Source of the DNA: Paenarthrobacter sp. GOM3
GTDB lineage: Bacteria; Actinomycetota; Actinomycetes; Actinomycetales; Micrococcaceae
Direction: 5' to 3'
NCBI RefSeq assembly: GCF_018215265.2
Contig: NZ_CP136562.1
Location: forward strand, 3,968,001-4,032,000
Length of the DNA: 64,000 nucleotides
Shown: positions 24,331-47,073 of the stretch, piece after piece
Layout of the letters: every line of letters starts with the position of its first letter
Numbering within the stretch: the stretch's first letter is position 1
Notes under the pieces: generated by a model
Seen by the model: the letters and a program-made list of their open reading frames with translations, nothing else
Databases searched by the model: none
What the model was told of the DNA's origin: nothing
Program-made: the position numbers and the translations under genes

Positions 24331-25323
24331 ATGGCACGTTTTGCAGGCAAGACCGGCGTCACCGCGGCGCTGGCCGCTACCGCCCTGCTGGGGCTCGCGG
24401 CCTGCTCGGATCCCGGTGCGACGGCCGCCACGAACGCGACTGCCCCGTCGTCGAACGCTTCGTCCGGCTCCACGACCAAAGAGTTCAACCTGACGCCCCA
24501 GCAGGACCGCATCAAAGTCACGGTCGATTCGGCGGCCGCCGCGCTGGTCCCTGACGCCATCAAGGCTGATGGCAAGTTGACGGTGGTGACCACCGGAGGC
24601 ACCCCGCCCCTGAGCACGTTTGCCACGGACAACAAGACGCTCATCGGCAGCGAAGTGGATATCGCCTACGCCGTTGGTGAGACCTTGGGCCTTCAGGTCG
24701 AAGTCCTTCCGGTGGCCTGGGCGGACTGGCCGCTGGGCGTTGAATCGGGCAAGTATGAGGCGGTTCTTTCCAACGTCACCGTCACAGAAGCCCGCAAGGA
24801 AAAGTTCGACTTCGCTACCTACCGCAACGACCTCCTGGGCTTCTACGCCAAGAGCGACTCGGACATCGGTGAGATCAAGGAAGCCAAGGACGTCGCAGGC
24901 AAGCGCATCATCGTCGGTTCGGGCACCAACCAGGAGGCCATCCTGGTGCGCTGGGACGAGGAGAACAAAAAGAACGGCCTGCAGCCGGTCGCTTTCCAGT
25001 ATTACGACGACGACTCCGCCTCCCAGCTCGCACTTCAGTCGGGCCGTGCGGACCTGACGTTTGGTCCCAACGCCTCGGCAGCCTACAAGGCCGCGAAGGA
25101 TGGAAAGACGAAGCAGGTAGGCACCTTGGAAGGCGGCTGGCCGTTGAAGGCCGAGATCGCGTTCACCACCCAGAAGGGCAACGGCTTGGCAGTAGCGGCC
25201 CAGGCTGCGCTGAACACCCTCATCAAGGACGGCGATTACGGCAAGATCCTGGACCGTTGGGGGCTGTCATCCGAGGCTATCCCGGCGTCCGAACTGAACC
25301 CGGCGGGTCTGCCTAAGAAGTAG
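24331..25323 (+). CDS. amino-acid ABC transporter substrate-binding lipoprotein (orphan)
   Basis: Extracytoplasmic solute-binding protein family 3, 330 residues. It has a lipoprotein signal peptide with a basic start (MARFAGKTG), a hydrophobic core and the lipobox LAAC at about residue 24. The mature part shows GKLTVVTTGGTPPLST, LIGSEVDIAYAVGETLGL and the GSGTNQE ligand-phase loop. The start at 24331 follows GAGGAG; a longer frame from 24277 would push the signal peptide inward. No permease or ATPase gene is adjacent. It is clearly similar to the binding protein at 32670-33689, so it may feed that transporter. A strong terminator follows. Confidence 0.9.
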   Translation: MARFAGKTGVTAALAATALLGLAACSDPGATAATNATAPSSNASSGSTTKEFNLTPQQDRIKVTVDSAAAALVPDAIKADGKLTVVTTGGTPPLSTFATDNKTLIGSEVDIAYAVGETLGLQVEVLPVAWADWPLGVESGKYEAVLSNVTVTEARKEKFDFATYRNDLLGFYAKSDSDIGEIKEAKDVAGKRIIVGSGTNQEAILVRWDEENKKNGLQPVAFQYYDDDSASQLALQSGRADLTFGPNASAAYKAAKDGKTKQVGTLEGGWPLKAEIAFTTQKGNGLAVAAQAALNTLIKDGDYGKILDRWGLSSEAIPASELNPAGLPKK

Positions 25324-25407: not shown

Positions 25408-26337
25408 TCAGAAGTGCGCGGGATCAGTGTTGGCGCCGCAGAGAATGACCGCCACCGTTTCGCCGTCGTGCGGTTTATATGCTCCGGAGAGCAACGCCGC
25501 GTAAGCTGCGGCCGCACCGTGCTCCACCACGATCCTGTGGTTTTCCCATAAGCTGCGTCGGGCTTGGATGATGTCCTCATCGCTGACAAGCACACTGTGC
25601 ACGCCGGTCCGGCGGGCAACCCCGAAGCCAATCTCCCCAATGCGCCGGGCGCCCAGGGAGTCGGCGGCGATTCCTGATACGGGTACGTCCACGGGTTTAC
25701 CTTGGGCGAGCGCTGTGTGCAGGGTGGGGACCGTTTCCGGTTCCACGCCAACCACGCGTGCCCTGCCCTCGGTGGCGGCGGCGATCCCGCCTATCAGCCC
25801 GCCGCCGCCGACAGCAACGAGGATGGTGTCGACGTCGGGCAGTTCGTCCAGCAACTCAAGCCCCACACCACCGGCGCCCGCGACGATCTCGAGCTGATCA
25901 TAGGCGTGGCAGTAGACGGCGCCCTTCTCTTCCGCGAAACGAACGGCCGCCGCGTAAGCTTCCGCGTACTCCGCGCCACCCTGGACCACGGTGGCACCGA
26001 TGGCATATAGCTTGTGCACCTTGTTGGCCGGCGCGGATTCGGGGACGAACACGGTTGCTGGTACGCCCAGCTTGGCCGCGGCGTAGGCGTTGGCCAGCCC
26101 GGCGTTACCCCCGGAGGCAACCACAATTCCGACCTCGGGATCCAGTTCGCCGTTTTCCTTCGCCGTCAGCAGCCGGTTGAACGCACCGCGGGCCTTGAAG
26201 GAGCCTGTGTGTTGCATGTATTCGCATTTGAACCACAGGTGGTAAGGCTCGGCGCTCCCGCTTTCGGCCACGGGCGTGTGGCGAACCCAGCTAGATGTCC
26301 GGGAATATGCGGCTTCAACTTCTTCGCGTGTGACCAT
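25408..26337 (-). CDS. threonine/serine dehydratase-like PLP enzyme
   Basis: PLP-dependent fold-type II enzyme of 309 residues, probably deaminating L-threonine or L-serine, or acting as a serine racemase-like enzyme. The Schiff-base lysine is in GSFKARGAFN (about residue 50). ASGGNAGLANAYAAAKLG (cofactor asparagine loop) and VAVGGGGLIGGIAAA (the tetraglycine loop that holds the phosphate) are clear. It lacks the C-terminal ACT-like regulatory domain of biosynthetic IlvA, so it is of the catabolic or general type. The ATG at 26337 follows AAAGGTG; an ATG nine codons upstream is less well placed. It stands alone between two terminated units. Confidence 0.86.
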   Translation of the reverse strand: MVTREEVEAAYSRTSSWVRHTPVAESGSAEPYHLWFKCEYMQHTGSFKARGAFNRLLTAKENGELDPEVGIVVASGGNAGLANAYAAAKLGVPATVFVPESAPANKVHKLYAIGATVVQGGAEYAEAYAAAVRFAEEKGAVYCHAYDQLEIVAGAGGVGLELLDELPDVDTILVAVGGGGLIGGIAAATEGRARVVGVEPETVPTLHTALAQGKPVDVPVSGIAADSLGARRIGEIGFGVARRTGVHSVLVSDEDIIQARRSLWENHRIVVEHGAAAAYAALLSGAYKPHDGETVAVILCGANTDPAHF

Positions 26338-26409
26338 GTGGGCGGCACCTTTCGTCCGTTTCATCCTAAGGTCGCTTGGGTGAAGCCGCTGTCATGGGCA
26401 GCGAGCGCA

Positions 26410-26415
26410 TAGGCT
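26410..26415 (+). promoter_or_regulatory. candidate -10 box for a leaderless GNAT transcript
   Basis: TAGGCT, identical to the box before the AEC leader ORF at 9225, ends seven bases before the ATG at 26423; no Shine-Dalgarno is present. Confidence 0.4.
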
Positions 26416-26422
26416 GGTTCGC

Positions 26423-26863
26423 ATGGCTGATTTCATTCTTCGTCCCTGCGTAGTCTCCGACGCGGCGTGGATCGCCGAGCTTCGTGCGGTGGTGATGCGC
26501 CCGGACCTGGAGCGCCTTGGAAGATTCGATCCCGTGCGGGTCCGCGAGCGTTTCCTGAAGGGATTCCAGCCGGAACATACCTCGGTGATCCATTCCGATG
26601 GCGTGGATGCCGGGGTGATCGCAGTCCGCCCGGAAGCGGATGCGTTGTGGATTGAACACTTTTACGTGGCTCCCACCCATCAGGGCAAAGGCTTGGGCGG
26701 GGCCGTGCTCCGGCATGTCATGGCAGCTTCGGCGGATCACCGGCCGTTCCGCCTGGACGTCCTGCAGGGCAGTCCTGCCCGGCGTCTCTATGAACGCCAT
26801 GGGTTCGTGTTGGAATCCGAGGATCCCATCGACGTTTTCATGGTCGCCGCCGCAACCCCCTGA
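26423..26863 (+). CDS. GNAT-family N-acetyltransferase
   Basis: A 146-residue GCN5-related acetyltransferase. The acetyl-CoA pyrophosphate loop is HQGKGLGGAVLRHVM (about residues 90-105), preceded by the beta-bulge strand LWIEHFYVAP and followed by LDVLQGSPARRLYERHGFVL, the typical motif B. Acceptor unknown. The gene is divergent from the dehydratase and has a TAGGCT box seven bases before the start, suggesting a leaderless mRNA. Confidence 0.82.
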   Translation: MADFILRPCVVSDAAWIAELRAVVMRPDLERLGRFDPVRVRERFLKGFQPEHTSVIHSDGVDAGVIAVRPEADALWIEHFYVAPTHQGKGLGGAVLRHVMAASADHRPFRLDVLQGSPARRLYERHGFVLESEDPIDVFMVAAATP

Positions 26864-26936
26864 CTGGACCCCCGCAAGTGCGGTAGCCTCAGCACAAACC
26901 TACGCACCATCGATGCCGGCTTCCGGGGGGAAACAA

Positions 26937-28133
26937 ATGGGGATTATTCGAGCGCGCACTGTCAGGTTTGCCTCGGCGGCCGTCTTGGGCTTGGCGGCGG
27001 GACTGTTGGGCACGGGCCCTTCCGAAGCAGCGTCCCAGCCAACACCGTACATCGACGGCGTCCCATACGTGGGTGCCGAAATGCGCCGCCAATACGACTA
27101 CAGCTACAACGGTTGCCGAAACCCTGACGGTTCAGGCGACGGGATCACGCTTGAATGGTTGCGGGACGGTGTTCCCCTTCCCCAGGAGCGGCAGGGCGAC
27201 GTCCTGAAAGTCCTTCCCGAGGACAAGGACGGCCGGATATCGCTGAGGGTGCACCCGCTCACTCCAGGCGCAACCGGTTGTCCCACAGGCACCCAACTGA
27301 GCGCGGAAACACGGCCGATCAAAGCGTCCAGCCGGGCGATGGGATGGACGGGGCGCGGCAACTTCGAGCCCCTGGCCCGGACCAACGACGGCAGGCTCAT
27401 CCTTTACCCACGGACCTACACGTACTACAAGGGCATGTGCGAAGGCCCTTGCCCTGCGTACTGGGGTTCCTGGGACGAACCCCAGCAAGTGGGGCAGGGC
27501 TGGAATGTCTTTGACATCGTGTTCTCCCCGGGCGACTTCGACGGCGACGGTTTCAACGATCTCCTGGGCCGGGACGCCGCGGGCAAGCTCTTCCTGTACC
27601 CCGGCGATGGTGAGGGCGGTTGGCTGGCCCGCCGGCAGGTAGGCCAAGGCTGGGGCATCTTCAATGCCATCGTGGGACCGGGTGACTTCAACGGCGATGG
27701 CACCAACGATGTGCTGGCACGCGACACCGGCGGCGGCCTCTTCCTTTACCCTGGCGACGGCGAAGGCGGCTGGCTTGAGCCCGAGCAGGTGGGGTGGGGT
27801 TGGCAGGTCATGAACAAGATCATCACAGGCGGTGATATGAACGCCGATGGTGCGGTGGATATTTTCGGCCGCGATCAGTCTGGCCGGTTGTACCAGTATC
27901 CCTCCGACGGCGAAGGTGGCTGGGAGCAGCCTGCACAGGTCGGCGTTGGGTGGGAGGCGTTCACCGTCGTGGCCGGACTCGGCAGCTCCGGCCACTCCAA
28001 ATACAACGAGCTCTCTGCAGTGGACGCCGACGGCAACCTTCTCGGCTACACCACAGGCGCGTCAACCGGAGCGTTGTACGGCCCGTACGGGCCGATAGGT
28101 AACGGTTGGAACGTCTTCAAGGATCTGCTCTAA
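26937..28133 (+). CDS. secreted VCBS/FG-GAP repeat protein
   Basis: Exported protein of 398 residues with a Sec signal peptide (RARTVRFASAAVLGLAAG, cleavage likely after EAAS at about 32). Residues 35-125 look like an Ig/'cell wall surface' type module with a cysteine pair (NGCRNPDG and TGCPTG). The C-terminal 270 residues hold about four tandem beta-propeller-like repeats, each with a calcium-binding DxDxDG-type loop (DFDGDGFNDLLGRD, DFNGDGTNDVLARD, DMNADGAVDIFGRD) followed by a strand like LFLYPGDGEGGW. Such repeats usually bind partners or glycans at the cell surface. The start follows GGGGGGA. It stands alone; function not recognised. Confidence 0.82.
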   Translation: MGIIRARTVRFASAAVLGLAAGLLGTGPSEAASQPTPYIDGVPYVGAEMRRQYDYSYNGCRNPDGSGDGITLEWLRDGVPLPQERQGDVLKVLPEDKDGRISLRVHPLTPGATGCPTGTQLSAETRPIKASSRAMGWTGRGNFEPLARTNDGRLILYPRTYTYYKGMCEGPCPAYWGSWDEPQQVGQGWNVFDIVFSPGDFDGDGFNDLLGRDAAGKLFLYPGDGEGGWLARRQVGQGWGIFNAIVGPGDFNGDGTNDVLARDTGGGLFLYPGDGEGGWLEPEQVGWGWQVMNKIITGGDMNADGAVDIFGRDQSGRLYQYPSDGEGGWEQPAQVGVGWEAFTVVAGLGSSGHSKYNELSAVDADGNLLGYTTGASTGALYGPYGPIGNGWNVFKDLL

Positions 28134-28287: not shown

Positions 28288-29634
28288 TCACGAGACCCGT
28301 ACCGACTCTTCGGAACGCACCGGCGTCTCAAGCCCCAGGTTTTCCCGGAGCGTGGTCCCGCGGTACTCCGTCGGGTACACGCCGCGTTCCTGGAGCTCGG
28401 GCACCAAGTGGTTCACGATGTCGTCCAAGCCAGTGGGGATGAGCCACGGCGAGATGTTGAACCCGTCCACGGCACCCACCCGTGCGTACTCGGCCAGGTG
28501 GTCTGCCACTGCGGTGTACGAACCCGTGAACGTTGAGTCGATGCGCGCCGTCTTGGACGTAACGAACCCACGGATGGACAGGCCCTTGTCCTTGGCCTCT
28601 GCACGCCACTGATCGGCGAGCTGCCGGGCTTTTGCGCCATGGAATCCACTGCCGCGGGTCTCGGACGTTTCCTCGACCACGGGATCGATCTCCGGTAGGG
28701 GACCGTCAGGATCGTAGGAGGATAGCTCCCGGCCCCAGAACTGTTCCAGGTATGCGATGGCCTGCTGCGGACCGATCTGCAGGCTGCGGACCCAGGCCTT
28801 TTTCTCCTGTGCCTCCTGCTCGGTGGCGGCGAGGATGAACTCGCTGGCGGGCATGATCTGCACGGCATTGGCACCGCGTCCGGCAGCTACGGAGCGCGTC
28901 ACAATGTCACGCCGGAACTCCACGGCGTCATCGAACTTGGGGTGTGCCGAGAAGATCACGTCGGCTTGGCGGGCAGCGAAATCGCGGCCTTCGGGAGAGT
29001 CGCCCGCTTGGAAGAGCACCGGCCGGTACTGGGCGCTGCGCGGCAAACGCGGCGTGACGTCCACGGTGTAGTGCTGGCCCTCGTGCCTGACGTGACGGGC
29101 GGGACCGGTGGCTGTCTCCCACGAGTCCCAGATGCGCTTGGCCGTTTCGACGAATGCTTCCGCGTGCTTGTAGCGGTCGGCATGGTCCAGGTACCCACCC
29201 CGGCGGAAGTTGGCTCCGGTCCAGGCGTTGTCCGTGGTCACCACGTTCCACGCGGCCCGGCCGCCGGAGATCAGGTCCAGCGACGACAAGCGGTGAGCCA
29301 GGTCGGCGGGATCGTTGTACGTGGTGTTTTGGGTGGCAACGAGGCCGATGTTCCGGGTGACGGCCGCAAGCGCGGCGAGCATCGTCTGCGCGTCGGGCCG
29401 GCCCACCACGTCCAGCGCATGGGGGCGCCCCAGGTGCTCGCGCAGCCGCAATCCTTCGCCGAGGAAGAAGGCCGCGAATTTTCCGCGTTCGGCGGTCTGG
29501 ACGATGTGGCGGAAGGACTCGAAGTCCGTTTGTGAGCCCGATTCATCCGCCTTCCAGATGGTGCCGGAGTTGACGCCTTGGAAGAAGATGCCGAACTGGA
29601 TCTGGCCGCTCGGCTGGAAAATATCTCGTGTCAT
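28288..29634 (-). CDS. LLM-class flavin-dependent monooxygenase, NtaA/SnaA/DszA type
   Basis: FMNH2-dependent monooxygenase of 448 residues, the length of the NtaA/SnaA/SoxA/DszA family, which cleaves C-N or C-S bonds in chelators, sulfides and sulfones. Visible features: IQFGIFFQGVNSGTIWK, FAAFFLGEGLRLREH, TRNIGLVATQNTTYNDP, SGGRAAWNVVTTDNAW (the family signature) and FQAGDSPEGRDFAARQADVI. It is the last gene of a seven-gene operon, nine bases after the preceding monooxygenase. The ATG follows AGGGGA. A reductase supplying reduced flavin is not adjacent; it may be encoded elsewhere. Confidence 0.87.
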   Translation of the reverse strand: MTRDIFQPSGQIQFGIFFQGVNSGTIWKADESGSQTDFESFRHIVQTAERGKFAAFFLGEGLRLREHLGRPHALDVVGRPDAQTMLAALAAVTRNIGLVATQNTTYNDPADLAHRLSSLDLISGGRAAWNVVTTDNAWTGANFRRGGYLDHADRYKHAEAFVETAKRIWDSWETATGPARHVRHEGQHYTVDVTPRLPRSAQYRPVLFQAGDSPEGRDFAARQADVIFSAHPKFDDAVEFRRDIVTRSVAAGRGANAVQIMPASEFILAATEQEAQEKKAWVRSLQIGPQQAIAYLEQFWGRELSSYDPDGPLPEIDPVVEETSETRGSGFHGAKARQLADQWRAEAKDKGLSIRGFVTSKTARIDSTFTGSYTAVADHLAEYARVGAVDGFNISPWLIPTGLDDIVNHLVPELQERGVYPTEYRGTTLRENLGLETPVRSEESVRVS

Positions 29635-29643
29635 GGTGGTCCC

Positions 29644-30705
29644 CTACTTTCCGGCGGCGGTGGCCGCGGCAGATGTCGAATAGCGGTTATCTGCCGGCCC
29701 CAGCCCCAGCACGTCGCGGAACGACCCGTCCTGGATGGGCGCCCGCAGCGAACCACGGCGCCTGAGTTCCGGAAGGACCAGACGTGACAGTTCCTCCAGG
29801 TCCACGTCCACCTCAGCGGGGTGGACGCGAACGCCGTCGGCCTCCTGCAGAAGCGAGTCCAAGAGTTCCGTCAGGTCGGCTGCGGTGCCAGCGAACCGCG
29901 CGCGTCCGCTTTCCGTGGAAGCCGCCAAGCGCGCTGCGGCGTCCTGCCCGCGTGAGTCCAGGACGACGTCGAGCTCCGCAACGACCGCAACAGCGGCACC
30001 AAGCCGGGCCCGCACGTCCCGGACCTCGGCAGCCAGCAGCTCCGCGGTAGGCGCGGAGACGAGGACTGCGTCCACAGCATCCACGGGGACCAAGCCCTCG
30101 CCCACCAGCGACGCCGCAGCGAGCACGGGCAGCTGGCCCTGGAGGGGCCTCGGGATGATGGACGGGCCCTTTACCGAATATGGCGTCCCGGCAAAGTCCG
30201 CGGGTGTTTCAAAGTCGACGTAGTGCAGTTTGTCGACGTCAATGTAACGCCCGGTAGCGACGTCGCGGATGACGGCGTCGTCCTCCCAGGAATCCCACAA
30301 ACGGCGGCCCACCTCGATGGAGGCGGCAGCTTCCTGCGCCAGGACGTCACCTTCAACAAAGGCGCGTCCGACGGCGGCGGCCGCCTCAGGCGATTCCGCT
30401 GCGGTAGCGATCCAGCCGGCACGCCCACCGGAGACGTAGTCCAGGCTGGCAAGCTGAGTGGAAATGTGGAACGGCTCCGTATAGACGGTGTCCACTTCCG
30501 GCACCACAGCGATGGTGCGCGTGATGGGCCCGGCGAAAGCTGCCCGCTGGAGTGCGTTGACCCGACCGGCAGCGGGTGCGTCTTTGAATGTTGCCACGTG
30601 GAATCCCGCGGACTCGGCGGCGAGGACGGCAGCGGAGAGGTTCCAGTAGCCCGCCCCGTCCAATTCGATGGCCAGGAACCCGGCTTGGTTGTTGTTGCTG
30701 CTCAC
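29644..30705 (-). CDS. LLM-class flavin-dependent oxidoreductase (divergent)
   Basis: A 353-residue luciferase-like protein. The family order is kept: FLAIELDGAGYWN at the N-terminus, TRTIAVVPEVDTVYTEP, LDYVSGGRAGWIATAAES and GRRLWDSWEDDAV. The C-terminal half is degenerate and rich in Ala/Asp/Glu, and the sequence is shorter than its neighbour. Substrate unknown. The GTG at 30705 overlaps the DUF1684 stop (GTGA), so the start is fixed; the longer upstream frame overlaps DUF1684 coding sequence. It belongs to the same operon as two other LLM proteins. Confidence 0.82.
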   Translation of the reverse strand: MSSNNNQAGFLAIELDGAGYWNLSAAVLAAESAGFHVATFKDAPAAGRVNALQRAAFAGPITRTIAVVPEVDTVYTEPFHISTQLASLDYVSGGRAGWIATAAESPEAAAAVGRAFVEGDVLAQEAAASIEVGRRLWDSWEDDAVIRDVATGRYIDVDKLHYVDFETPADFAGTPYSVKGPSIIPRPLQGQLPVLAAASLVGEGLVPVDAVDAVLVSAPTAELLAAEVRDVRARLGAAVAVVAELDVVLDSRGQDAAARLAASTESGRARFAGTAADLTELLDSLLQEADGVRVHPAEVDVDLEELSRLVLPELRRRGSLRAPIQDGSFRDVLGLGPADNRYSTSAAATAAGK

Positions 30706-31523
30706 TTCTGGTCCTGACGTTCGTAGGGGATCTTTTCGCCGGCTTCGATAGCCACAGGAAGCCGGTTTTCGGCCGGCGGCAGCGGGCAGGTCGCAAGGTC
30801 GGTGTAGGCGCAAGGGAGGTTCACGGCCCGATTGAAGTCGAGCTGGACAGTTCCGTCGGCGGCCGGAACAACGGACAGCGAGCGGTTGGCCGCGTAGGTG
30901 GTCTTACCGGAGGTCTGGTCGGTGAACAGCACGGACAGCGAGCCCGGCGCGTAGCCGTTGAACGCGGTCAGCGCCAACTCCTCGCCGGCCAACCTGAAGC
31001 GGATCTCACCCGGAGCTTCGTACACATGCTGGATGCCTTCCACCGCGGCCCCCACCGTGGTGGCGCGCGGTGTCTCGAACGGCACGAAGGTACCAGCCAC
31101 GGCAAAGGCGGCATTGGGCGTGTAGGCGGGCGTCCCTTGGTACTGCTTCAGCAGCTGGTTTTCGGGATTCCGCGGGCGCACGATGTACTCGCCGCCGCGC
31201 TTGGCAACCTCGATCACGGTGTCGCCAGAAACCAGGTTGATCCCGCCGCGTTCCTCGATTGGTCCCAACGCTACGCTGCCGCTGAGCTGGACACCGTCCC
31301 GCTCCAGGCTCTCCCCCGGTTCCAGGACAACCCGTACGACGTCGTCATCCGCACTCCAGATGCCCGGCGCACCTTCCAGCCGGGTCGCCTCGCTGCTGAG
31401 CCAGTGCAGGTGGGTCACAGCGAGGAAGCCATGCGGGTGGGCCCGGTTGCGCTCGTGGGCAGCGTGCCATTCCTGCCATTCCTCGTCAAAGGCTTCGAGT
31501 GCTGTTTCAGTGTGCAAAGACAT
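30702..31523 (-). CDS. DUF1684-family protein
   Basis: Conserved protein of 273 residues from a family without a settled function (DUF1684). Typical parts are the N-terminal helix EEWQEWHAAHERNRAHPHGF, the WLSSEATRLEGAPGIW strand region, and a conserved C-terminal block NRAVNLPCAYTDLATCPLPP with AIEAGEKIPYE. No signal peptide or membrane segment is seen, so it is cytoplasmic. The ATG at 31523 lies 17 bases inside the upstream monooxygenase gene. Its place between two flavin-dependent oxygenases suggests it handles their product or substrate. Confidence 0.8.
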   Translation of the reverse strand: MSLHTETALEAFDEEWQEWHAAHERNRAHPHGFLAVTHLHWLSSEATRLEGAPGIWSADDDVVRVVLEPGESLERDGVQLSGSVALGPIEERGGINLVSGDTVIEVAKRGGEYIVRPRNPENQLLKQYQGTPAYTPNAAFAVAGTFVPFETPRATTVGAAVEGIQHVYEAPGEIRFRLAGEELALTAFNGYAPGSLSVLFTDQTSGKTTYAANRSLSVVPAADGTVQLDFNRAVNLPCAYTDLATCPLPPAENRLPVAIEAGEKIPYERQDQK

Positions 31524-32673
31524 GGGCGTTGTCCGTCCTGTTGAAGGCATGGTCGGCGGTGACTGCGGCTGCGGCGTCCGGTTCGGTGGACCCGGCGAAT
31601 TCCGGGCGGCCGCCGAAGGGGTCCCCGGCTTCCCACAGCGTGGTGGGGGCCGCAGCCCGGACGGCGGGGATGACCTCCAGGGCGAAGCGCTCCAGGATGT
31701 CCAGCTGCTGTTCGAACGGCAACGTGGTGGGCAGGGAGATCGATTGGAGATCGTGGCCGTACAGGGAGTGGTAGCTGAGGATCTTGTCGATCACCTGTTC
31801 CGGGCTTCCCACCAGAGCGGGGCCCTCAGCCACGGCGTGCTCAATGTCGCGGAAAGGCGAGTTGTTCCCCGGAACGTTGCGGCCGGCGGTCAGGCCCTCA
31901 TACACGGGACCGTACTGCCGGATGGCTTCCTGGGTGGTGTCCGCGATGAACACTCCACCAGCGCCGCTGCCCGAGCCAAGGTATTGGTGCCGTGGATCAT
32001 GGCCGTGGCGCTCGTACTCTTCGCGGTAATGGTCGATCAGGACCTTGTAGTTTTCCCGCGGCTGGATGGCGTTGGCCGTGAACAACGGATCGCCCCACTT
32101 GGCGGCGAGCGCAGCCGACGTCAGGGTTGTAGCCGAGCCGTGCCAAATCCGGGGCGACCCCGCAAAGGGGCGTGGCGTCGTCGTCGTTGGTTCGGTGAGG
32201 GCGGGCCGGAAACGACCGGACCAGGTGACGCTTTCCTTGCGCCACAGCGTGCGCAGCAGCGCATACTTTTCGGCGAGCAGGTCCCATTGATCGTCCAGGG
32301 AAAGGCCGAACAACGGGTACTGCAGCACCTCGTTGCCCTTGCCAATCACCAGTTCCAGGCGTCCACGGCTCAGCTGGTCGATCGTGGCGTAGTCCTCGGC
32401 CACACGCACGGGATCCAGCACGGAGAGCACGGTGACACCGGTCTGGAGGCGGATGCGGCTGGTGACGGCAGCGATCGCGGCGAGGACCGTCGTCGGGGAT
32501 GACGAGACGAACTCACCGGCGTGGCGTTCCCCCACCGAGAAGCTGTCGAAGCCGAGCTCCTCTGCGCGGCGGGCCGTCTCAACTACCTGGTTGAGCCGAT
32601 CAGCAGTGGACACGATTTCCCCGGTGACCGGGTTCTTCAAGTGGGGAATGATGTCCAGGACCTGGAACTTCAT
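31507..32673 (-). CDS. LLM-class flavin-dependent oxidoreductase
   Basis: A luciferase-like monooxygenase of 388 residues. Features: MKFQVLDIIPHLKN, LGFDSFSVGERHAGEFVSSS (conserved ExH), IRLQTGVTVLSVLDPVRVAE, LSRGRLELVIGKGNE, and WGDPLFTANAIQP. The C-terminal 40 residues (GGRPEFAGSTEPDAAAAV to HVFAH) look variable. It starts four bases inside the end of the ABC binding-protein gene (ATGA) and ends inside the DUF1684 gene, so expression is tightly linked to the transporter. Probably oxidises the compound that the transporter imports. Confidence 0.86.
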   Translation of the reverse strand: MKFQVLDIIPHLKNPVTGEIVSTADRLNQVVETARRAEELGFDSFSVGERHAGEFVSSSPTTVLAAIAAVTSRIRLQTGVTVLSVLDPVRVAEDYATIDQLSRGRLELVIGKGNEVLQYPLFGLSLDDQWDLLAEKYALLRTLWRKESVTWSGRFRPALTEPTTTTPRPFAGSPRIWHGSATTLTSAALAAKWGDPLFTANAIQPRENYKVLIDHYREEYERHGHDPRHQYLGSGSGAGGVFIADTTQEAIRQYGPVYEGLTAGRNVPGNNSPFRDIEHAVAEGPALVGSPEQVIDKILSYHSLYGHDLQSISLPTTLPFEQQLDILERFALEVIPAVRAAAPTTLWEAGDPFGGRPEFAGSTEPDAAAAVTADHAFNRTDNAHVFAH

Positions 32674-33689
32674 TTGCCGGTACCGAACGTCGCTTCGGTG
32701 ACGGTCTTCGATTCCGTGACGGCTTCTTCGGAAAGGCCCCAGCGTTCCAGGACCTTGGCGTAGGAACCGTCCTTAATGGTGGAGTTCAGTGCGTCGGTGA
32801 TGGCCGGGGCCAGTCCGTTGCCCTTGAGCGTGGTGGCGGCAACCAGGGTTTCAGAGGGCCAACCGGCGTTGACCTTTCCCACTACCTTGAGGTCGTCACG
32901 GGTGTTTTCGCGGTACGTGACGGACGGGTACGGCGCCAGGTTCAGGTCGGTGCGGCCGGAGGACAGCGCCAGGATGGTGTCGGCGTCGGAGGAGTAGTAC
33001 TGCAACGTGGCCGGCGCCTTGCCCTTGCCTTCAAGTTCCTTGTTCCACGCCAGCAGGATCTTCTCCTGGTTGGTGCCGGACCCTACGGAGACCTTCAACC
33101 CGGAAATGTCGTCCGAGCCCTTGATGTCGTAGCTGGAGCTCTTCTTCGCTTCAAACCCCATGTAGGCGGCGCGGTACGTGGAGAAGTCGAACAGCTTTAC
33201 GCGGGCGGCGTTGATGCCCACATTGGAGAACACGGCCTCGAAGTCGCCTGACTGCGTCTTCAGCGGCCAGTTCTCCCACGAGGTCACCTGGAGGTCCAGT
33301 TCCAGCCCGAGCTTGTCGGCCACGAGCTGGGCGATGTCCACCTCCACGCCAATGGGGGTCTTGTCATCCGTGGCGTGGAAGGACAGTGGGATGGAGCCCG
33401 CCGTGGTGGCCACGGTCAGCTTGCCGTCCTTGGCGATGGCGGCAGGTACCTTGGCGGACGCTGCGGCGTCCTTCTCATCTCGGATCCGGTTCTGGTCAAC
33501 CGAGGTGTTGTACACAATGCCGTTCTTGGCGGCCGCCGATTCCGGCTTGGCTGCCGACGCCCCGGGATCGGAGCACCCGGCCAACACCGGAAGCACGACG
33601 GCGGGAAGTACAGCCAGTGCCAGGAGCTTGGTTTTGGTGGGACGCAGCGTGGTTTCATGTGCGGCGAAGGCGTGGGTCTTGCGAAGCAT
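32670..33689 (-). CDS. amino-acid ABC transporter substrate-binding lipoprotein
   Basis: Family 3 solute-binding protein of 339 residues. The N-terminus has a long basic region, a hydrophobic core and the lipobox LAGC (about residue 39). The mature part shows GKLTVATTAGSIPLSF, PIGVEVDIAQLVADKLGLEL, the VGSGTNQEKIL loop and AGWPSETLVAATTLKGNG. The SBP, ATPase and permease genes together form a complete polar amino-acid importer; context with flavin monooxygenases suggests a sulfur-containing amino acid derivative. The protein strongly resembles the orphan binding protein at 24331-25323. Confidence 0.9.
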   Translation of the reverse strand: MLRKTHAFAAHETTLRPTKTKLLALAVLPAVVLPVLAGCSDPGASAAKPESAAAKNGIVYNTSVDQNRIRDEKDAAASAKVPAAIAKDGKLTVATTAGSIPLSFHATDDKTPIGVEVDIAQLVADKLGLELDLQVTSWENWPLKTQSGDFEAVFSNVGINAARVKLFDFSTYRAAYMGFEAKKSSSYDIKGSDDISGLKVSVGSGTNQEKILLAWNKELEGKGKAPATLQYYSSDADTILALSSGRTDLNLAPYPSVTYRENTRDDLKVVGKVNAGWPSETLVAATTLKGNGLAPAITDALNSTIKDGSYAKVLERWGLSEEAVTESKTVTEATFGTGK

Positions 33690-33699
33690 GGAGGGAGTC

Positions 33700-34635
33700 C
33701 TAGATGTTGAAAGCTGGTTCGATGACTTTGGAGAAGAAGCTCCGGGTGCGTTCCTCGCGCGGGTTGGCGAAGATGTCCTGGGGTGAGCCGGATTCGATGA
33801 TCAGCCCGTCATCCATGAACACCACGGTGTCTGCCACGTCCCGGGCAAAGCCCATCTCGTGGGTCACGATGATCAGTGTGGTGCCGGACTTGGCCAGCTC
33901 CCGGATAACGTCCAGGACCTCGTTGACCAGTTCAGGGTCCAAGGCGGAAGTGGGCTCATCGAAAAGCAGGATCTTCGGATCGAGCGCCAACGCACGGGCA
34001 ATTGCGACGCGCTGCTGCTGGCCGCCGGAGAGCTGGCGAGGGTAGGCGTCGGCGCGGTCCTTCAGTCCCACCCGGTCCAGGAGTTCCAAGCCACGCTTCC
34101 GGGCTTCGGCCTTGGAGCGCTTCTGCGCCACGATCGGCGCCTCGATGACGTTCTCCAGGGCCGTGAGGTGCGGGAACAGGTTGAAGCTCTGGAACACCAT
34201 GCCGATATTGGTGCGCTGCTTGAGGATGTCCTTCTCGCGCAGTTCGTGGAGTTTGTTGCCACGGACCTCGTAGCCCACCAGTTCGCCGTCGATGGTGATG
34301 TAGCCGCCGTCGACCTTTTCGAGGTGGTTGATGGTTCGCAGGAGCGTGGACTTGCCGGAACCGGACGGTCCAACGATCACAGCCACGCCGCCAGGCCGGA
34401 CGGAGAGGGAAACACCTTTGAGGACCTCGGTGGCGCCGAAGGACTTCCGGACGTTGGCGATATCCACCTGTCCACGGGTTGCTGTGGTGTCTACGGAAGC
34501 GGCAACGGCGGCAGCTTGGGTTCCGTCCGGGGTTCCGCCCTGCGGTTCGCCTGGCGTTTTGCCCTGGGTTTTGCCTGCGGCGCGGGCGGCCTGGGCGGCC
34601 TTCGCGGATTCTTTGCGTGCTGCGATGATGCTCAT
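33700..34635 (-). CDS. amino-acid ABC transporter ATP-binding protein
   Basis: ATPase of a polar amino-acid importer, 311 residues. Walker [11 protein letters not shown]-loop [12 protein letters not shown], signature [15 protein letters not shown], Walker [14 protein letters not shown] and the switch histidine in IIVTHEMGF are all intact. The first 55 residues are an unusual low-complexity extension with repeated GKTxG/GxPxG units before the domain proper ([11 protein letters not shown]). The start overlaps the permease stop by four bases. The extension makes the protein longer than the usual 245-260 residues; an internal start is possible but none is well placed. Confidence 0.92.
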
Positions 34636-35597
34636 CGGGCGTCCTTCGTGGGAGAAGCGGCAACGTGGGTGGCGAAGAACTTCCGGGCCTTCTGCAACGG
34701 CGTGAGCGGCAAGGTCCGGAGGGCGCCCTTGGAGAAGTGGCGCTCAATGTAGTACTGGAAAACGCTCAGCACCGAAGTGATCACCACGTACCAGAGGGTG
34801 GCCACCAGGAGCAGCGGCAGCACCTGCTGGGTCCGGTTGTAGATGACCTGGACGGTGTAGAAAAGCTCGGAGTAAGCCAGGACGTAAACGATCGATGTCC
34901 CCTTGACCAAGCCGATGATCTCGTTGAAGGCGTTGGGCAGGATGGCGCGCATGGCCTGGGGCAGCACGATCCGGGTGGAACGCTTCCACGCCGGGATGCC
35001 CAAAGCGGACGCAGCTTCCAGCTGGCCCTGGTCAACGGAGAGGATGCCGCCTCGGATGATCTCGGCGGAGTAGGCGGCCTGGTTCAGCGTGAGGCCAAGA
35101 ACCGCAGCCGCGAACTGGCTGATGAGCGTGGTGGTCTGGGCTTCGAAGAAGCGGACGTCCGTGAAGGGGATGCCCAGGCTGATCTTCTCGTAAAGGTAGC
35201 CCAGGTTGTACCAAAGGAGGAGCTGGACCAGCAGCGGGGTGGAACGGAAGATCCAGGAGAACGTCCAGGACACCGAGACCAGCAACGGCGAGGCAGACAG
35301 GCGCATGAGGGCCAGGATGAACCCAAGCACAAAGCCGAGGACACCGGAGATGGCCGTCAGTTTGAGGGTCTCCACCAAACCGTTGACAACGGACTGGGCG
35401 GTGAACCATTGGGCCACCACGCCCCACTCCCAGCGGGGGTTGGTCACCAGCGACCAGGCGATGGCTGCGACGCCGGCGGCAACCAGCACCGTGCCCACCC
35501 AACGCCAGGGGTGACGGGCCGGGACCAGCTTGTACTCGGAGTAGTCCGGGGTGGGCGGTGCGGTGTCCGCCGTGGCAGGCGGTGCGATTGCACTCAT
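34632..35597 (-). CDS. amino-acid ABC transporter permease
   Basis: His/Glu/Gln/Arg-family permease of 321 residues. A cytoplasmic N-terminal tail and one extra N-terminal helix (RWVGTVLVAAGVAAIAWSL) precede the core of about five helices. The EAA loop that contacts the ATPase is clear: EAASALGIPAWKRSTRIVLP. The early segment GLVETLKLTAISGVLGFVLG is typical. First gene of the seven-gene operon; the ATG at 35597 follows GAGGTG. A single permease gene implies a homodimeric channel. Confidence 0.91.
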   Translation of the reverse strand: MSAIAPPATADTAPPTPDYSEYKLVPARHPWRWVGTVLVAAGVAAIAWSLVTNPRWEWGVVAQWFTAQSVVNGLVETLKLTAISGVLGFVLGFILALMRLSASPLLVSVSWTFSWIFRSTPLLVQLLLWYNLGYLYEKISLGIPFTDVRFFEAQTTTLISQFAAAVLGLTLNQAAYSAEIIRGGILSVDQGQLEAASALGIPAWKRSTRIVLPQAMRAILPNAFNEIIGLVKGTSIVYVLAYSELFYTVQVIYNRTQQVLPLLLVATLWYVVITSVLSVFQYYIERHFSKGALRTLPLTPLQKARKFFATHVAASPTKDAR

Positions 35598-35728
35598 GCG
35601 CCACCTCATTTCAGTTCGGTTGTTGTCTATTGGATGGCTGCCAATCTATGGGCGCGCCGAAGCCGCCAGCAAGGCAGCAATTTGCACTTCTTCACCCGGC
35701 TTAGCGCGACTTCTCGGGGCTTCGCATG

Positions 35729-35796
35729 GCGTCACAAAATCCTTCACCAACCGTTAAATGCGTCTCTTCTTTGCCTGCGTTAACGCGGTGTGACGC
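35729..35796. promoter_or_regulatory. spaced 8-base inverted repeat in the divergent control region
   Basis: GCGTCACA at 35729-35736 and TGTGACGC at 35789-35796 lie in the 288-base gap between the transporter/monooxygenase operon and the divergent FAD-binding protein gene. A second, shorter pair ATTGG/CCAAT is at 35629-35633 and 35641-35645. Either could be an operator for a regulator encoded elsewhere. Confidence 0.3.
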
Positions 35797-35885
35797 GTAG
35801 TGAACGGCCGTTACCCGCTCCTCGACCGGCGTGCCCGGGGGTCCCTAGATTGGACTGCACCAACCACTGTTTGCCAGGAGATCCC

Positions 35886-37799
35886 ATGCCGTCACGAGTT
35901 CCAGCCGTCGCCTTTATTGGCGGCGGCCCGCGCACGGCCGGCGTCCTCGAACGGCTCGCCGCCAACCGCCCAGCGCTGTTCGATGGTCCGTTGGACATCC
36001 ACGTGATCGAGCCGCACCAGCCGGGCTCGGGCAGGATCTGGCGTTACGACCAGGACCCCGGCCTGCTGCTCAACTCAACAGCCGCGGACGTCACCATGTT
36101 CACGGACGCTTCGGTGGCCTGCGACGGTCCAACGGTTGATGGCCCGGGCCTCTCTACCTGGGCCGCGGGTGTGCTGGACGGCACCATCCGGGACGTTCCT
36201 GCCCTGGAGCCGCACCTGCTCGAGCAGCTCCGTTCGCTGACTCCTGCGTCCTTCCCCACCCGCCAGCTCCAGAGCAAGTACCTTGAGTGGTTCTTCCGCC
36301 GGGCAGTCTCCTCCCTCGGCCCGGATGTGACAGTCACGGTCCATCGGGACACGGCAACCGCCGTCGAACGCGCTTCCGACGACGGTTCCCACCACGTCAG
36401 GCTGGCTTCCGGCGCTGAGGTGATTGCCGACGTCGTGGTTTACGCACTGGGCCACACCGATTCTTTGCTGGATCCTGAGTCCGCCCGCCTCAGCGACTTT
36501 GCTGCCACGCATGGCGGGTTCCATGCGCCGCCGTCGTACACCACGGATGTGGACTACTCCGCGGTGGAGGCAGGCCAGGACGTGATCGTCTCCGGAATGG
36601 GGCTCGCGTTCGTTGACCTGTTGGTGCTGTTGTTTCAGGGCCGCGGTGGGCGTTTCGAGGAAAGGCCCGACGGCGAACTCGACTACGTTCCGTCCGGCGC
36701 CGAGCCACGGGTCTGGGCAGGGTCGCGGCGAGGGGTGCCGTACCACTCCAAAATCTCCTCGGAGCTGCGCGGTGAGCCGGTTGCCCGCCCCCGATATTTC
36801 ACTGCAGAGGCTGTCCAGGCGTTGTTGGCAGAGCATCAGGAGCTCGATTTCCGGACGCAGCTGTGGCCGCTCATCGCCAAGGATGCCGGCTACGCCTACT
36901 ACCGGGAACTGTTCACCGGCTACCCATCACGGGTGCTGGGGACGTGGGAAAGCTTCGAAGCCCATTTTGACGCCGCCCCCTGGTACAGCTCCGCGCGGGA
37001 AGAACTGGTGGCCGTCTCTATCCCGGATCCGGCACTCCGCCTGGACCTGGAGAAGCTCGACCGCCCCTTGAGCGGATGCGCTTTCGCCGACCACGACGCG
37101 GTGCAGCGCTCCGTTGCCGCGTACATCCAGAACGACCTCAACCTCCGCACCAGCAGCGACCACTCGGAAACCCTCGCGTTGTTCACCGCGCTCCTGTTTG
37201 TATACATGGATCTCGGCCGGCTTGTCCCGCAGGAGCGGCTCAACGCCCGCTCCCAGCAGGCGATCCACGGCTGGTGGCACGGCTTCTTCAGCTTCGTTGA
37301 CTCCGGGCCCCCTTCCCACCGCCTCCGTGAGATGCTCGCGCTGCACAGGGCCGGACTCCTGAAATTCCTGGGCCCGGGTATGTGGGTGCGCGCTGATGAA
37401 ACCCTCGGACGGTTCGTTGCGGGCTCCTTCCAGTCGCCGGTGGTGGTGGACGCGTCCGCCTACATCGAGGCACGGCTGCCTTCGGCCTCGGTGGAGCGGT
37501 CCGCCAACCCGGCCCTGCTGCACCTGCACGACGCCGGATGGGGCACCGAACAGCGGCTGCTCACCTCCGAAGGAGCCCACTCCACGGGGAAACTCCTGGT
37601 CTCCGGGAATCACGAAGTATTGTCCCCTGTTGGTACTCCACAGAAGGGTCTGTTTGCGGTGGGTCCGTGGACGTCGGGGTGGGGCGCGGGGGCCTTTGCC
37701 CGTCCCAACACCAACGCAGCTCCGTTCCGGGAAAACGACGCCCTGGCACGGAGGATCCTGTCCACGGTTGCCGTCGTCCCAGCGCTCCAACCCAACTAG
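35886..37799 (+). CDS. FAD/NAD(P)-binding protein (FAD-NAD(P)-binding PF13454 type)
   Basis: A 637-residue flavoprotein-like protein. The N-terminal Rossmann motif is AVAFIGGGPRTAGVLERL, a GxGPRG variant typical of this family. IHVIEPHQPGSGRIWR and GLLLNSTAADVTMFTD follow, and a second dinucleotide-binding stretch QDVIVSGMGLAFVDLLVLL is at about residue 235. The C-terminal third ends with GLFAVGPWTSGWGAGAFARP, the FAD-closing motif. Probably an NAD(P)H-dependent monooxygenase or reductase; substrate unknown. The start at 35886 follows AGGAG. It is divergent from the LLM operon and followed by a GNAT gene, a set-up consistent with a shared pathway. Confidence 0.83.
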   Translation: MPSRVPAVAFIGGGPRTAGVLERLAANRPALFDGPLDIHVIEPHQPGSGRIWRYDQDPGLLLNSTAADVTMFTDASVACDGPTVDGPGLSTWAAGVLDGTIRDVPALEPHLLEQLRSLTPASFPTRQLQSKYLEWFFRRAVSSLGPDVTVTVHRDTATAVERASDDGSHHVRLASGAEVIADVVVYALGHTDSLLDPESARLSDFAATHGGFHAPPSYTTDVDYSAVEAGQDVIVSGMGLAFVDLLVLLFQGRGGRFEERPDGELDYVPSGAEPRVWAGSRRGVPYHSKISSELRGEPVARPRYFTAEAVQALLAEHQELDFRTQLWPLIAKDAGYAYYRELFTGYPSRVLGTWESFEAHFDAAPWYSSAREELVAVSIPDPALRLDLEKLDRPLSGCAFADHDAVQRSVAAYIQNDLNLRTSSDHSETLALFTALLFVYMDLGRLVPQERLNARSQQAIHGWWHGFFSFVDSGPPSHRLREMLALHRAGLLKFLGPGMWVRADETLGRFVAGSFQSPVVVDASAYIEARLPSASVERSANPALLHLHDAGWGTEQRLLTSEGAHSTGKLLVSGNHEVLSPVGTPQKGLFAVGPWTSGWGAGAFARPNTNAAPFRENDALARRILSTVAVVPALQPN

Positions 37800-37824
37800 G
37801 GTTTCCACCTACGAAAGGCATGAC

Positions 37825-38343
37825 ATGACCACCTCGCCGACCCTCCCGACGTCGGGCCTCACCGTCCTGAGCCTGCCTATGGACGATCCCCGCGTCCGCC
37901 CGCTCCTGGACGAGCTCGCCGTCGAATACGAGGCACGCTATGGGGATCTGTTCAGCAGCGAGGGCGCGGCCGAGGAACTTAACCGGTACCCCGCCGAAGA
38001 GTTCGCGGCTCCGCACGGTGCGCTCATCATCATCCAGGAGAACGGCGAATCCGTGGCCGGCGGCGCCTTCCGCCGCTACGACCAGGACACAGCCGAGCTC
38101 AAGAGGATTTGGACCCACTCCGCCCATCGCCGTCGCGGATTGGCACGTCGCGTTCTCGTCGAGCTCGAAGCCGAGGCCCGGCGCCGCGGCTACACCAAGC
38201 TCTACCTGACCACAGGACCGCGCCAGCCGGAAGCCAAGAACCTGTACCTGGCCACAGGGTACACGGCGCTTTTCGACCTCGACGCGGACCCCGAGGAAAT
38301 CATGCATTTGGCGTTCAGCAAGGATCTTGCCCCGCACAGCTAA
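37825..38343 (+). CDS. GNAT-family N-acetyltransferase
   Basis: A 172-residue acetyltransferase. The acetyl-CoA loop is HRRRGLARRVLVELEAEARR (about residues 105-125), preceded by LKRIWTHSA and followed by KLYLTTGPRQPEAKNLYLATGY. The start at 37825 follows GAAAGG, 25 bases after the FAD protein. In known S-alkyl-cysteine degradation clusters a GNAT N-acetylates the substrate before a flavin monooxygenase acts, which would fit here, but the acceptor is not shown by the sequence. Confidence 0.84.
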   Translation: MTTSPTLPTSGLTVLSLPMDDPRVRPLLDELAVEYEARYGDLFSSEGAAEELNRYPAEEFAAPHGALIIIQENGESVAGGAFRRYDQDTAELKRIWTHSAHRRRGLARRVLVELEAEARRRGYTKLYLTTGPRQPEAKNLYLATGYTALFDLDADPEEIMHLAFSKDLAPHS

Positions 38344-45939: not shown

Positions 45940-46154
45940 TTACGTCCTCCTGGACTCATACGTTTTTGAGCTTTCAAGCGGAATGCGAGCAAGCCACTGT
46001 TCGAAAACTTACCAGCTTGGGCAGCCATGGCCAGCAAATTCCGCGTGTTTCCGCGCCTTTTTGACCAAAATCACCGGTTTTTCGCGGTTTTTGGGACCGG
46101 TTTACGCCCTTGGCGTACCCTGCGCCGTTGGCTGGGACCCATTGCCCTGCCCGG

Positions 46155-46724
46155 TCAGAACAGGATGCGTTGGAACAGGACGTGGTCCTGCCACTCCCCG
46201 GCGATCTGCAGATAGTCGGGCGCCATCCCGATCCGCTCGAAACCAGACCTCTTGAGTACCGCCTGCGAGGCCAGGTTATGGACCAGGGTGGCGGCCTGAA
46301 CGCGATGGAGTCCGAGGTCATCCGCAGCCATGGTGAGGACTTGTCCCACTGCGGCCGATGCAAGGCCCCTGCCAGTGAACTCCTGGTCAATCCAATAACC
46401 CATATTCGCGCTGAGAAAGGGTCCGCGGACGACGCCCGTGAGCGTGATTCTTCCGATGATCCTTTCGCCAGCGGTAAGGACCCACGGCACCTCGCTGCCG
46501 GCTGCGAACAGGTTCAGCTTGATTGCCACATCTTTAGCCTGACCGGCTGCGCTGAAGAACTCGTCGCTGCGTTGAGGGTCCCACGGGGCCAGGTGGTCGC
46601 GGTTCCGTGCGTAGGCGGCGGCCAGGGGGCCGGCATCCTGGGATTCCAACGGGCGGAGGGTCAGCAACCCGTGGCTGGCGGGGGTACCGGTGGCGTCAAA
46701 AAGGAGGCTCCGGGTGAGATTCAT
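46155..46724 (-). CDS. RimJ/RimL-like GNAT acetyltransferase
   Basis: A 189-residue acetyltransferase of the ribosomal-protein N-alpha-acetyltransferase type. Family parts: LLTLRPLESQDAGPLAAAY, YWIDQEFTGRGLASAAVGQV (acetyl-CoA loop GRGLAS), LHRVQAATLVHNLASQAVL and KRSGFERIGMAPDYLQIAG with the final DHVLFQRIL. It may acetylate a protein N-terminus or a small amine. The ATG is preceded by TATTGT-CATGGG (46725-46736, minus strand), a -10 box six bases from the start and no Shine-Dalgarno, so a leaderless mRNA is likely. This box lies right at the edge of the first rRNA duplication. Confidence 0.83.
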   Translation of the reverse strand: MNLTRSLLFDATGTPASHGLLTLRPLESQDAGPLAAAYARNRDHLAPWDPQRSDEFFSAAGQAKDVAIKLNLFAAGSEVPWVLTAGERIIGRITLTGVVRGPFLSANMGYWIDQEFTGRGLASAAVGQVLTMAADDLGLHRVQAATLVHNLASQAVLKRSGFERIGMAPDYLQIAGEWQDHVLFQRILF

Positions 46725-46766
46725 CCCATGACAATACCTGTGTTGTGTTGTGTGGGTTAAATGGGT

Positions 46767-46795
46767 GGAGCCCCGACCGTGGTGGTCGGGGCTCC
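46767..46795 (-). terminator. terminator of rRNA operon 1
   Basis: GGAGCCCCGACC at 46767-46778 pairs exactly with GGTCGGGGCTCC at 46784-46795 around a 5-base loop, 14 bases beyond the 5S 3' end. The same hairpin closes operon 2. Confidence 0.9.
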
Positions 46796-46808
46796 CCGTT
46801 AATGTGTG

Positions 46809-47057: not shown

Positions 47058-47073
47058 TGCAGTGTGTTGTGTG

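Follow-up and report, generated by a model that had tools for sequence, protein, structure and literature searches.

An operon for an amino-acid importer and three luciferase-fold proteins, poor in cysteine and methionine, as a probable organosulfur-scavenging system of Paenarthrobacter sp. GOM3

Why would an amino-acid importer be encoded in one operon with three luciferase-like monooxygenases (LLMs)? The question is raised by a locus in the 4.46-Mb single-contig genome of Paenarthrobacter sp. GOM3, within a stretch of 64,000 nucleotides (positions 3,968,001 to 4,032,000 of contig NZ_CP136562.1; hereafter, the window), whose genes have their closest named relatives in Paenarthrobacter and Arthrobacter. 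Here, seven minus-strand genes (from 35609 down to 28288) encode a permease, an ATPase, a binding lipoprotein (SBP), LLM1, a DUF1684 protein, LLM2 and LLM3, and two genes on the opposite strand diverge from them, encoding a flavin adenine dinucleotide (FAD) protein (35886-37799) and a GNAT acetyltransferase (37825-38343). Our analysis indicates that this is probably a sulfur-starvation operon that scavenges organosulfur amino acids or their small derivatives. Sequence comparison shows an importer that has two binding proteins, a trio of luciferase-fold proteins, one of which lacks the flavin mononucleotide (FMN) site, an invariant cysteine pair in the DUF1684 protein, a predicted monooxygenase of the FAD and NADPH (reduced nicotinamide adenine dinucleotide phosphate) type and a GNAT, all jointly poor in cysteine (Cys) and methionine (Met). 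The sulfur-related genes (SufS, SufU, MetZ, SsuD and SsuE types) that lie next to the same core in other genomes support organosulfur use.

The operon is real and conserved across relatives. A previous sequence-only reading of the window had placed the nine genes and named their families, and it is borne out by the positions of the open reading frames (ORFs) and by profile matches (three to Bac_luciferase and one each to DUF1684, SBP_bac_3, ABC_tran, BPD_transp_1, NAD_binding_9 and Acetyltransf_1). The tightly packed operon with divergent FAD and GNAT genes that it described stands as well. Four of the six junctions within the operon overlap, by 4 bp between the permease and ATPase, SBP and LLM1, and DUF1684 and LLM2 genes (GTGA in the last case), and by 17 bp between LLM1 and DUF1684; the remaining two are a 10-bp gap between the ATPase and SBP genes and a 9-bp gap between LLM2 and LLM3. 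Furthermore, the importer, DUF1684, LLM2, LLM3 and the divergent FAD gene are found together in 27 further distinct Arthrobacter-type loci, with or without LLM1. Since the 4.46-Mb genome contains only about 14 genes of the luciferase family (15 matches, one ORF being counted as two halves), three consecutive LLM genes are not expected by chance.

The main line of evidence for this reading is amino-acid composition. The ten module proteins (the products of the nine genes and a separate second binding lipoprotein, SBP2) contain 22 Cys and Met in 3566 residues (0.62%), not counting the initiator, compared with 248 in 10430 residues (2.38%) for the other window proteins longer than 150 residues (binomial P 2.7e-16; Mann-Whitney P 4.5e-6). 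The latter set includes the LLM encoded at 23061 and a dehydratase-like gene, both of which are left out of the set of 22 other window proteins of the same minimum length with a median of 2.44%; the backgrounds exclude proteins shorter than 150 residues and those at locus ends. Beyond the start residue, LLM1 and LLM2 are free of Cys and Met; next come SBP2 (0.30%), LLM3 (0.45%), SBP (0.59%), DUF1684 (0.74%), the permease (0.93%), the ATPase (0.97%), the FAD protein (1.10%) and GNAT (1.17%). The same pattern was observed across 30 Arthrobacter-type loci (the window included, L094 left out), where Cys and Met amount to 2 of 7157 residues in LLM1 (20 proteins), 5 of 10745 in LLM2 (29), 53 of 13275 in LLM3 (30), 59 of 9718 in SBP (29; 0.61%), 68 of 8625 in DUF1684 (30), 0.44% in SBP2, 0.89% in GNAT, 1.18% in the ATPase and 1.21% in the FAD protein, compared with 1122 of 48829 residues (2.30%) in 146 unlabelled neighbours. 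The two DUF1684 paralogs in the same genome contain 2.1 and 3.2%, and the eight other binding proteins 0.74-3.68%, such that SBP and SBP2 are the lowest of the ten family members found. Oxygenases of Gordonia NB4-1Y that are raised on poor sulfur sources are reported to contain on average 0.88-1.33% sulfur amino acids, against 3.01% in the proteome (PMC7661421). Such depletion in the present module suggests synthesis at times when sulfur is scarce and, because the composition spares sulfur, we favour an organosulfur substrate over an N-alkyl amino acid; the sequence-only reading had offered both.

The composition and order of the neighbourhood were traced from two sides. A DUF1684 profile scan of named genomes gave at least 560 relatives, of which the best 80 loci were analysed; 27 of these are of the Arthrobacter type (two, L078 and L098, being contigs shorter than 4 kb). 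Neighbours were counted within ten genes of the seed, taking only the first seed gene per locus and dropping ORFs of fewer than 80 codons. In the 27 Arthrobacter-type loci, DUF1684 has LLM2 nearby in 26, SBP in 26, LLM3, the permease and the FAD gene in 25 each, GNAT in 23 and LLM1 in 15, the last being absent from the operon in some relatives; the permease is 87-99% identical across the other loci of this type that have it. LLM2 is near DUF1684 in 43 of the best 80 loci, and still in 17 of the 53 that are not of the Arthrobacter type; in a second close-relative set, in which 25 of 26 loci gave counts and three are from the genus of the window, it is near in 18 of 25. Among distant DUF1684 paralogs, with counts from 12 of 14 loci, LLM2 is near in 2 of 12. 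Random association of DUF1684 with LLM genes, named by the sequence-only reading as a refutation, thus does not hold for close relatives; the tie to the LLM pair is real for one DUF1684 clade and not for the whole family. Sulfur-related genes near the core include, in the 25 close-relative loci, SufS type (8), SufU (7) and MetZ (5), the SufS-like protein of L109 scoring under the family cut-off, and, in the best 80 DUF1684 loci, SsuD (6), MetZ (6) and two SsuE types (4 and 2). The sulfur reading also has a parallel in Rhodococcus qingshengii IGTS8: proteins reported to rise more than fourfold during growth on dibenzothiophene include two with the annotation nitrilotriacetate monooxygenase component A, as well as a consecutively numbered set of ABC ATPase, periplasmic binding protein and sarcosine oxidase (PMC8557817), and this set resembles genes beside relatives of the core in L072 and L224.

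From the other side, a search with an LLM2 profile in 345 genomes of the class Actinomycetes found matches at 1e-20 in 152 and strong ones (best E <1e-90) in 81, the strong matches being separated by a clear gap from weaker NtaA-type matches. In 40 loci picked by hand, not at random, from 102 matches above 270 bits and taken as 20-kb pieces, LLM3 lies on the same strand no more than two genes from LLM2 in 37; the exceptions are L192, L210 (a truncated piece of contig) and the first of two LLM2 copies in L218, which lies at the locus edge; the second copy there has its LLM3. The flanks are far less constant, with DUF1684, GNAT and FAD genes within ten genes of LLM2 in 5, 6 and 4 loci, respectively, and L212, from the genus of the window, has the importer, FAD, GNAT, LLM2 and LLM3 with neither DUF1684 nor LLM1. 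Because the flanks vary while the pair is constant, the importer, DUF1684, LLM1, GNAT and FAD appear as modules around LLM2-LLM3, a near-obligate pair that is the real core of the system. In L219, L220 and L221, all from one family, an MsnO8-type LLM gene sits between LLM2 and LLM3, a GNAT gene adjoins LLM2 and MetZ is nearby.

Of the three LLM types recognised by the sequence-only reading, all have their Bac_luciferase match and each assignment needs refinement. LLM1 (31507-32673, minus strand; 388 residues; Bac_luciferase 3e-70) lies between the CE1758 and 2I7G families, below the curated cut-offs of both. LLM3 (28288-29634, minus; 448 residues) is an FMN monooxygenase of the NtaA/DmoA family (TIGR03860, 351.7 bits, over the cut-off of 279.7), with YtnJ as its best relative in the PDB (3e-65), nearly tied with an NtaA (3sdo, 2e-63) and NtfO2 (5e-62). 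LLM2 (29644-30705, minus) is a degenerate NtaA-type protein (135.1 bits, under the same cut-off); it probably starts with the GTG at 30705, giving 353 residues, which is shorter than the longest ORF and matches the length of close relatives. Its predicted model (predicted local distance difference test score 83.1) shows a luciferase-like fold, with BdsA as the best match (2e-22).

The loss of the FMN site in LLM2, which the sequence-only reading had not seen, becomes apparent when 64 adjacent LLM2-LLM3 pairs (63 distinct loci) are compared in 12 columns, using NtfO2 numbering. Here and in the sets of 36 FAD, 93 DUF1684 and 29 intergenic sequences below, the window itself is included and one locus, fetched twice (L036 and L094), stands twice. 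Docking placed the FMN of NtfO2 on Q203, Y155, H151, T133, F222, F56, A58 and T101, and activity is reported to be almost abolished when H151, T133, T101 or F56 is mutated (PMC8027225). LLM3 keeps F56, T101, N130 and T133 in all 64 pairs and Y155, the Q-x-G-x-S-x-x-G loop and the F222 column in 63; H151 is kept in 47, and the A58 position holds G in 37 and A in 27. In LLM2, N130, T133, H151, Y155 and the loop Q are kept in none of the 64, F56, the loop S and the last loop G in one, the first loop G in 8, F222 in 13 and T101 in 19. This closely recalls NtfO1-NtfO2 (StmO1-StmO2; PDB 7E36), a luciferase-fold heterodimer of an FMN-binding subunit and a smaller partner (PMC8027225), in which NtfO1 presumably lacks FMN, the cofactor having been placed only in NtfO2. 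For LLM3 the match is to chain B, which by its numbering is NtfO2 (5e-62), and for LLM2 to chain A, presumably NtfO1 (1e-17). By this analogy, we infer that LLM2 and LLM3 form a heterodimer. A common origin of LLM2 and NtfO1 is not supported because LLM2 matches ordinary NtaA-type enzymes better, and NtfO1-NtfO2 hydroxylates a polyketide (PMC8027225), whereas the window pair stands in a sulfur-supply setting.

The DUF1684 protein (30702-31523, minus) probably starts at 31523, giving 273 residues, a length that is short of the longest ORF and matches close relatives. After the start, its only sulfur-containing residues are C238 and C246 (C-x7-C). The pair is kept in 93 of 93 close family members, with no third Cys in 89 and no Met past the first residue in 64. 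As nearly all other sulfur atoms have been shed while these two were kept, they are probably needed, which suggests thiol chemistry. The Haloferax DUF1684 protein HVO_1043 has been grouped with thiol-relay proteins for its conserved C-x7-C and is reported to be induced 10-40 fold by hypochlorite (PMC9426492). The window protein is longer than HVO_1043 and Halobacterium Q9HRE7 (PDB 4fj4, 4dlh), at 273 residues vs 174-191 in the solved chains.

The FAD protein (35886-37799, plus; 637 residues, starting at the ATG at 35886) resembles L-aspartate N-hydroxylase of the FzmM type nearly over its full length (8cp2; 5e-78, aligned residues 8-627 of 638), a kinship that the sequence-only reading had missed. 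In a survey of 36 sequences, from which those of 500 residues or fewer were excluded, W51, N62 and R577, which belong to the FAD/NADPH class-B core, are present in all, R593 in 35 and R13 in 34; R266 is replaced by K in all 36, and R276 and R597 are kept in 6 and 2, respectively. The substrate pocket differs: R409, R412, N413 and R416, which in the aspartate enzyme bind sulfates or, in the case of R416 and N413, aspartate (PMC10404684), are kept in none of the 36, R409 being replaced by L, R412 by Y (one H), N413 by M, V, G or F, and R416 by G, A, T or P. By its sequence, the protein is thus assigned as a class-B-type monooxygenase with a substrate that is probably not aspartate. Class-B-type monooxygenases can oxygenate sulfur, as the garlic flavin-containing enzyme does on S-allylcysteine.

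From these parts, a tentative route can be drawn. Under sulfate shortage, the importer would take in an amino acid containing a thioether or S-oxide, and GNAT would acetylate its amine, as in the S-alkylcysteine pathways of Bacillus. The FAD enzyme would then oxygenate the sulfur or, less likely, a nitrogen. LLM3, which would need LLM2 as its heterodimer partner for activity, would split the C-S bond using reduced FMN from a reductase encoded elsewhere, and LLM1 would perform a second oxidative step. Finally, the DUF1684 cysteine pair would relay or reduce the released sulfur. The importer consists of an amino-acid permease of the ATP-binding cassette (ABC) type (34632-35609, minus; 325 residues; BPD_transp_1 2e-21), for which the best NCBIfam model is a cystine permease, under its cut-off, an ATPase of the polar amino-acid type (33700-34635, minus; 311 residues; ABC_tran 2e-36; EhuA and TcyN models under cut-off) and SBP (32670-33689, minus; 339 residues; SBP_bac_3 5e-21). 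GNAT (plus; 172 residues; Acetyltransf_1 5e-15 for the longer ORF) has YsnE as its best PDB relative (2e-8).

Several observations weigh against this interpretation. Ten other luciferase-family genes of the genome are often Cys/Met-poor too (0-2.5%; P 0.025 for the trio against these), so part of the LLM depletion belongs to the LLM family in this genome; several of the other LLM genes lie in further Cys/Met-poor islands. The FAD protein and GNAT are depleted only mildly and may for this reason form a separate regulon. LLM2 is missing within ten genes in 37 of the best 80 DUF1684 loci, as is DUF1684 in 35 of the 40 LLM2 loci. A single genus accounts for all the SufU loci and for all but one of the eight with a SufS-type gene, so that these neighbourhoods amount to about one observation. 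The operon encodes no flavin reductase and no deacetylase; the M20 protein of a related locus, L120, has four homologs elsewhere in the genome (ORFs taken to the most upstream start), the best at 41% identity, with 3.1-4.2% Cys and Met, and an M20-family gene (PF01546) of the window, at 20367-21599, has a normal content of 2.69%. The parallels with Gordonia and Rhodococcus drawn above rest on composition or annotation, not on sequence matching. The gene at 20367-21599 lies six genes from LLM3, and it was not found with the L120 protein as query.

Among the other Cys/Met-poor islands, the one at 3.664-3.674 Mb of the genome (L249:8987-18209) encodes an MsnO8-type LLM (0.00%), a rhodanese-like protein (0.69%), an SsuD-like LLM (0.78%), an NlpA-type binding lipoprotein (0.34%), an NtaA-type LLM (0.22%) and a GNAT (0.00% after the start). 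Another, at 1.485 Mb (L251:7973-10582), combines an NtaA-type LLM (0.44%), a GNAT (0.59%) and a small protein that by eye is RidA-like, all at 0.4-0.8%. At 3.902-3.908 Mb (L252:5676-10593), a 499-residue protein of the aromatic-amino-acid-lyase family (PF00221, 3e-108) without Cys or Met after the start adjoins an LLM with low Cys/Met content, with MetZ nearby; our guess is that it acts as a lyase on a sulfur compound, for instance ergothioneine.

Could the operon be simply a Bacillus-type salvage system for S-alkylcysteines, with N-acetylation by GNAT, C-S cleavage to N-acetylcysteine by LLM3 and deacetylation by an M20 enzyme encoded elsewhere? The clusters for S-modified cysteines in Bacillus include an importer. 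They combine acetylation with monooxygenase-catalysed C-S cleavage and deacetylation (PMC12757645). Like the scm (yxe), ytn and yha clusters of Bacillus subtilis, the window operon brings a GNAT and an LLM together with an amino-acid importer, and it likewise probably serves to exploit thioether amino acids. The mechanistic likeness to ytm/ytn that had been noted from the sequence alone is fair, given that YtnJ is the best PDB relative of LLM3, although the N-acetylcysteine deacetylase that would complete the scheme is absent from the operon. No M20 enzyme of this kind is found among the nine genes, in line with the earlier remark that the operon lacks a deacylase. M20 enzymes of the TIGR01891 subfamily are present in the genome, and a single profile recognised M20 amidohydrolases in four related loci, next to both LLM2-LLM3 and DUF1684 in L037 and L120 and next to DUF1684 alone in L108 and L057; the four proteins have a median Cys and Met content of 0.56%, and the one of them tested against TIGR01891 scored over the cut-off. 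However, the ten-gene neighbourhoods of DUF1684 in the 27 loci of the Arthrobacter type among the best 80 contain no match to the M20 profile, GNAT accompanies only 6 of the 40 LLM2 loci, and LLM2 without its FMN site, DUF1684, LLM1 and the FAD monooxygenase, which set the operon apart from the Bacillus clusters, are left with no role. The Cys/Met-poor pairs of an NtaA-type LLM and a GNAT at 1.485 and 3.67 Mb are better candidates for a Bacillus-type pathway than the window operon. Strict Bacillus-type salvage is therefore unlikely here.

The operon might instead serve the breakdown of sulfonates, sulfones or aromatic organosulfur compounds, in the manner of Dsz, Sfn or Ssu systems, with a loosely specific importer. 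LLM3 and LLM2 share fold and family with DszA/BdsA of the 4S pathway, genes of the SsuD and SsuE types occur near some relatives, and, of the 40 LLM2 pieces, 11 encode an importer of the oligopeptide type (checked by Pfam on one set) and 13 an amino-acid permease, with both in 5 and neither in 21. Against this possibility, the importer of the window is of the polar amino-acid type and its permease is highly conserved across Arthrobacter-type loci, GNAT would find no amine to acetylate, and no members of the DszB or DszC families are found among the nine genes. We consider such a function rather improbable.

A narrower objection concerns the pair itself: LLM2 could be a decaying protein, or an independent one that binds another ligand, and not a subunit of LLM3, given that the proposed contact is drawn from NtfO1-NtfO2. 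Decay or independence appears doubtful: although its FMN site is gone, LLM2 is conserved across numerous families within the class, has its own set of invariant residues and nearly always adjoins LLM3. Finally, nitrogen supply from N-alkylated or N-oxygenated amino acids, through N-hydroxylation by the FAD protein and C-N cleavage by the LLMs in the manner of nitrilotriacetate monooxygenase, would agree with the kinship of the FAD protein and of LLM3 (3sdo) and with the sarcosine-oxidase-like genes near a few relatives (4 of 40 LLM2 loci and 4 of the best 80 DUF1684 loci, none in the window operon), but is very unlikely, considering that Cys/Met depletion economizes sulfur and not nitrogen, that sulfur genes are among the neighbours in other lineages and that four residues of the N-hydroxylase pocket have been lost; the N-alkyl amino acid offered by the sequence-only reading is thus not supported as the main explanation, and the organosulfur alternative is upheld by the extreme scarcity of Cys and Met together with the sulfur genes beside the core elsewhere.

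The operon and the FAD gene share a divergent control region (35610-35885) with stretches conserved in most relatives. In an alignment of 29 intergenic regions, these are TGGCTGC.AATCTA (35635-35648), GTGACGCG..GT.AACGG (35790-35807) and CTCGACC (35821-35827); a simple scan of the region found no sigma-70 consensus. On the FAD side, four GTGAC/GTTAAC-like repeats, spotted by eye and spaced about 10-11 bp apart, lie within stretches conserved in most of the aligned relatives and are likely to be a regulator site. SBP2 (24331-25323, plus; SBP_bac_3 3e-22 for the longer ORF), a lipoprotein of the same type as SBP, is a probable extra receptor; proteins of its type number 15 over the 30 Arthrobacter-type loci counted. 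Between SBP2 and LLM3, at 25411-28133, a threonine-dehydratase-like gene, a small GNAT gene and one further gene are kept in the closest relatives and show no strong Cys/Met depletion. Farther away, at 46000-61000 of the window, the GC content drops to about 0.55-0.60, the skew is mostly strong and a codon model predicts almost no genes; this is perhaps acquired DNA.

Is this then an undescribed pathway, as the sequence-only reading proposed? In part: the parts are unstudied, above all the partner without FMN, DUF1684 and the relative of the N-hydroxylase whose pocket has changed, and the whole is a variant of known sulfur-scavenging systems; that reading had foreseen neither the loss of the FMN site in LLM2, nor the Cys/Met depletion, nor the link to aspartate N-hydroxylase. 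A bolder possibility, somewhat less likely than not, is that LLM2-LLM3 represents a widespread, unrecognised class of heterodimeric flavin monooxygenases in Actinomycetes, in which a partner without FMN was recruited for C-S cleavage under sulfur starvation, with DUF1684 as a thiol or sulfur relay and the FAD protein as a new S-oxygenase of thioether amino acids. To our knowledge, actinobacterial uptake of organosulfur is known for few compounds. Organosulfur compounds reportedly account for over 95% of the sulfur available in aerobic soils (PMC3839906). The finding draws attention to a pair of enzymes in which one partner is without cofactor, and it gives DUF1684 a testable setting, with two residues to mutate; the Cys/Met content, in turn, helps to pick sulfur-scavenging genes in an unannotated genome.

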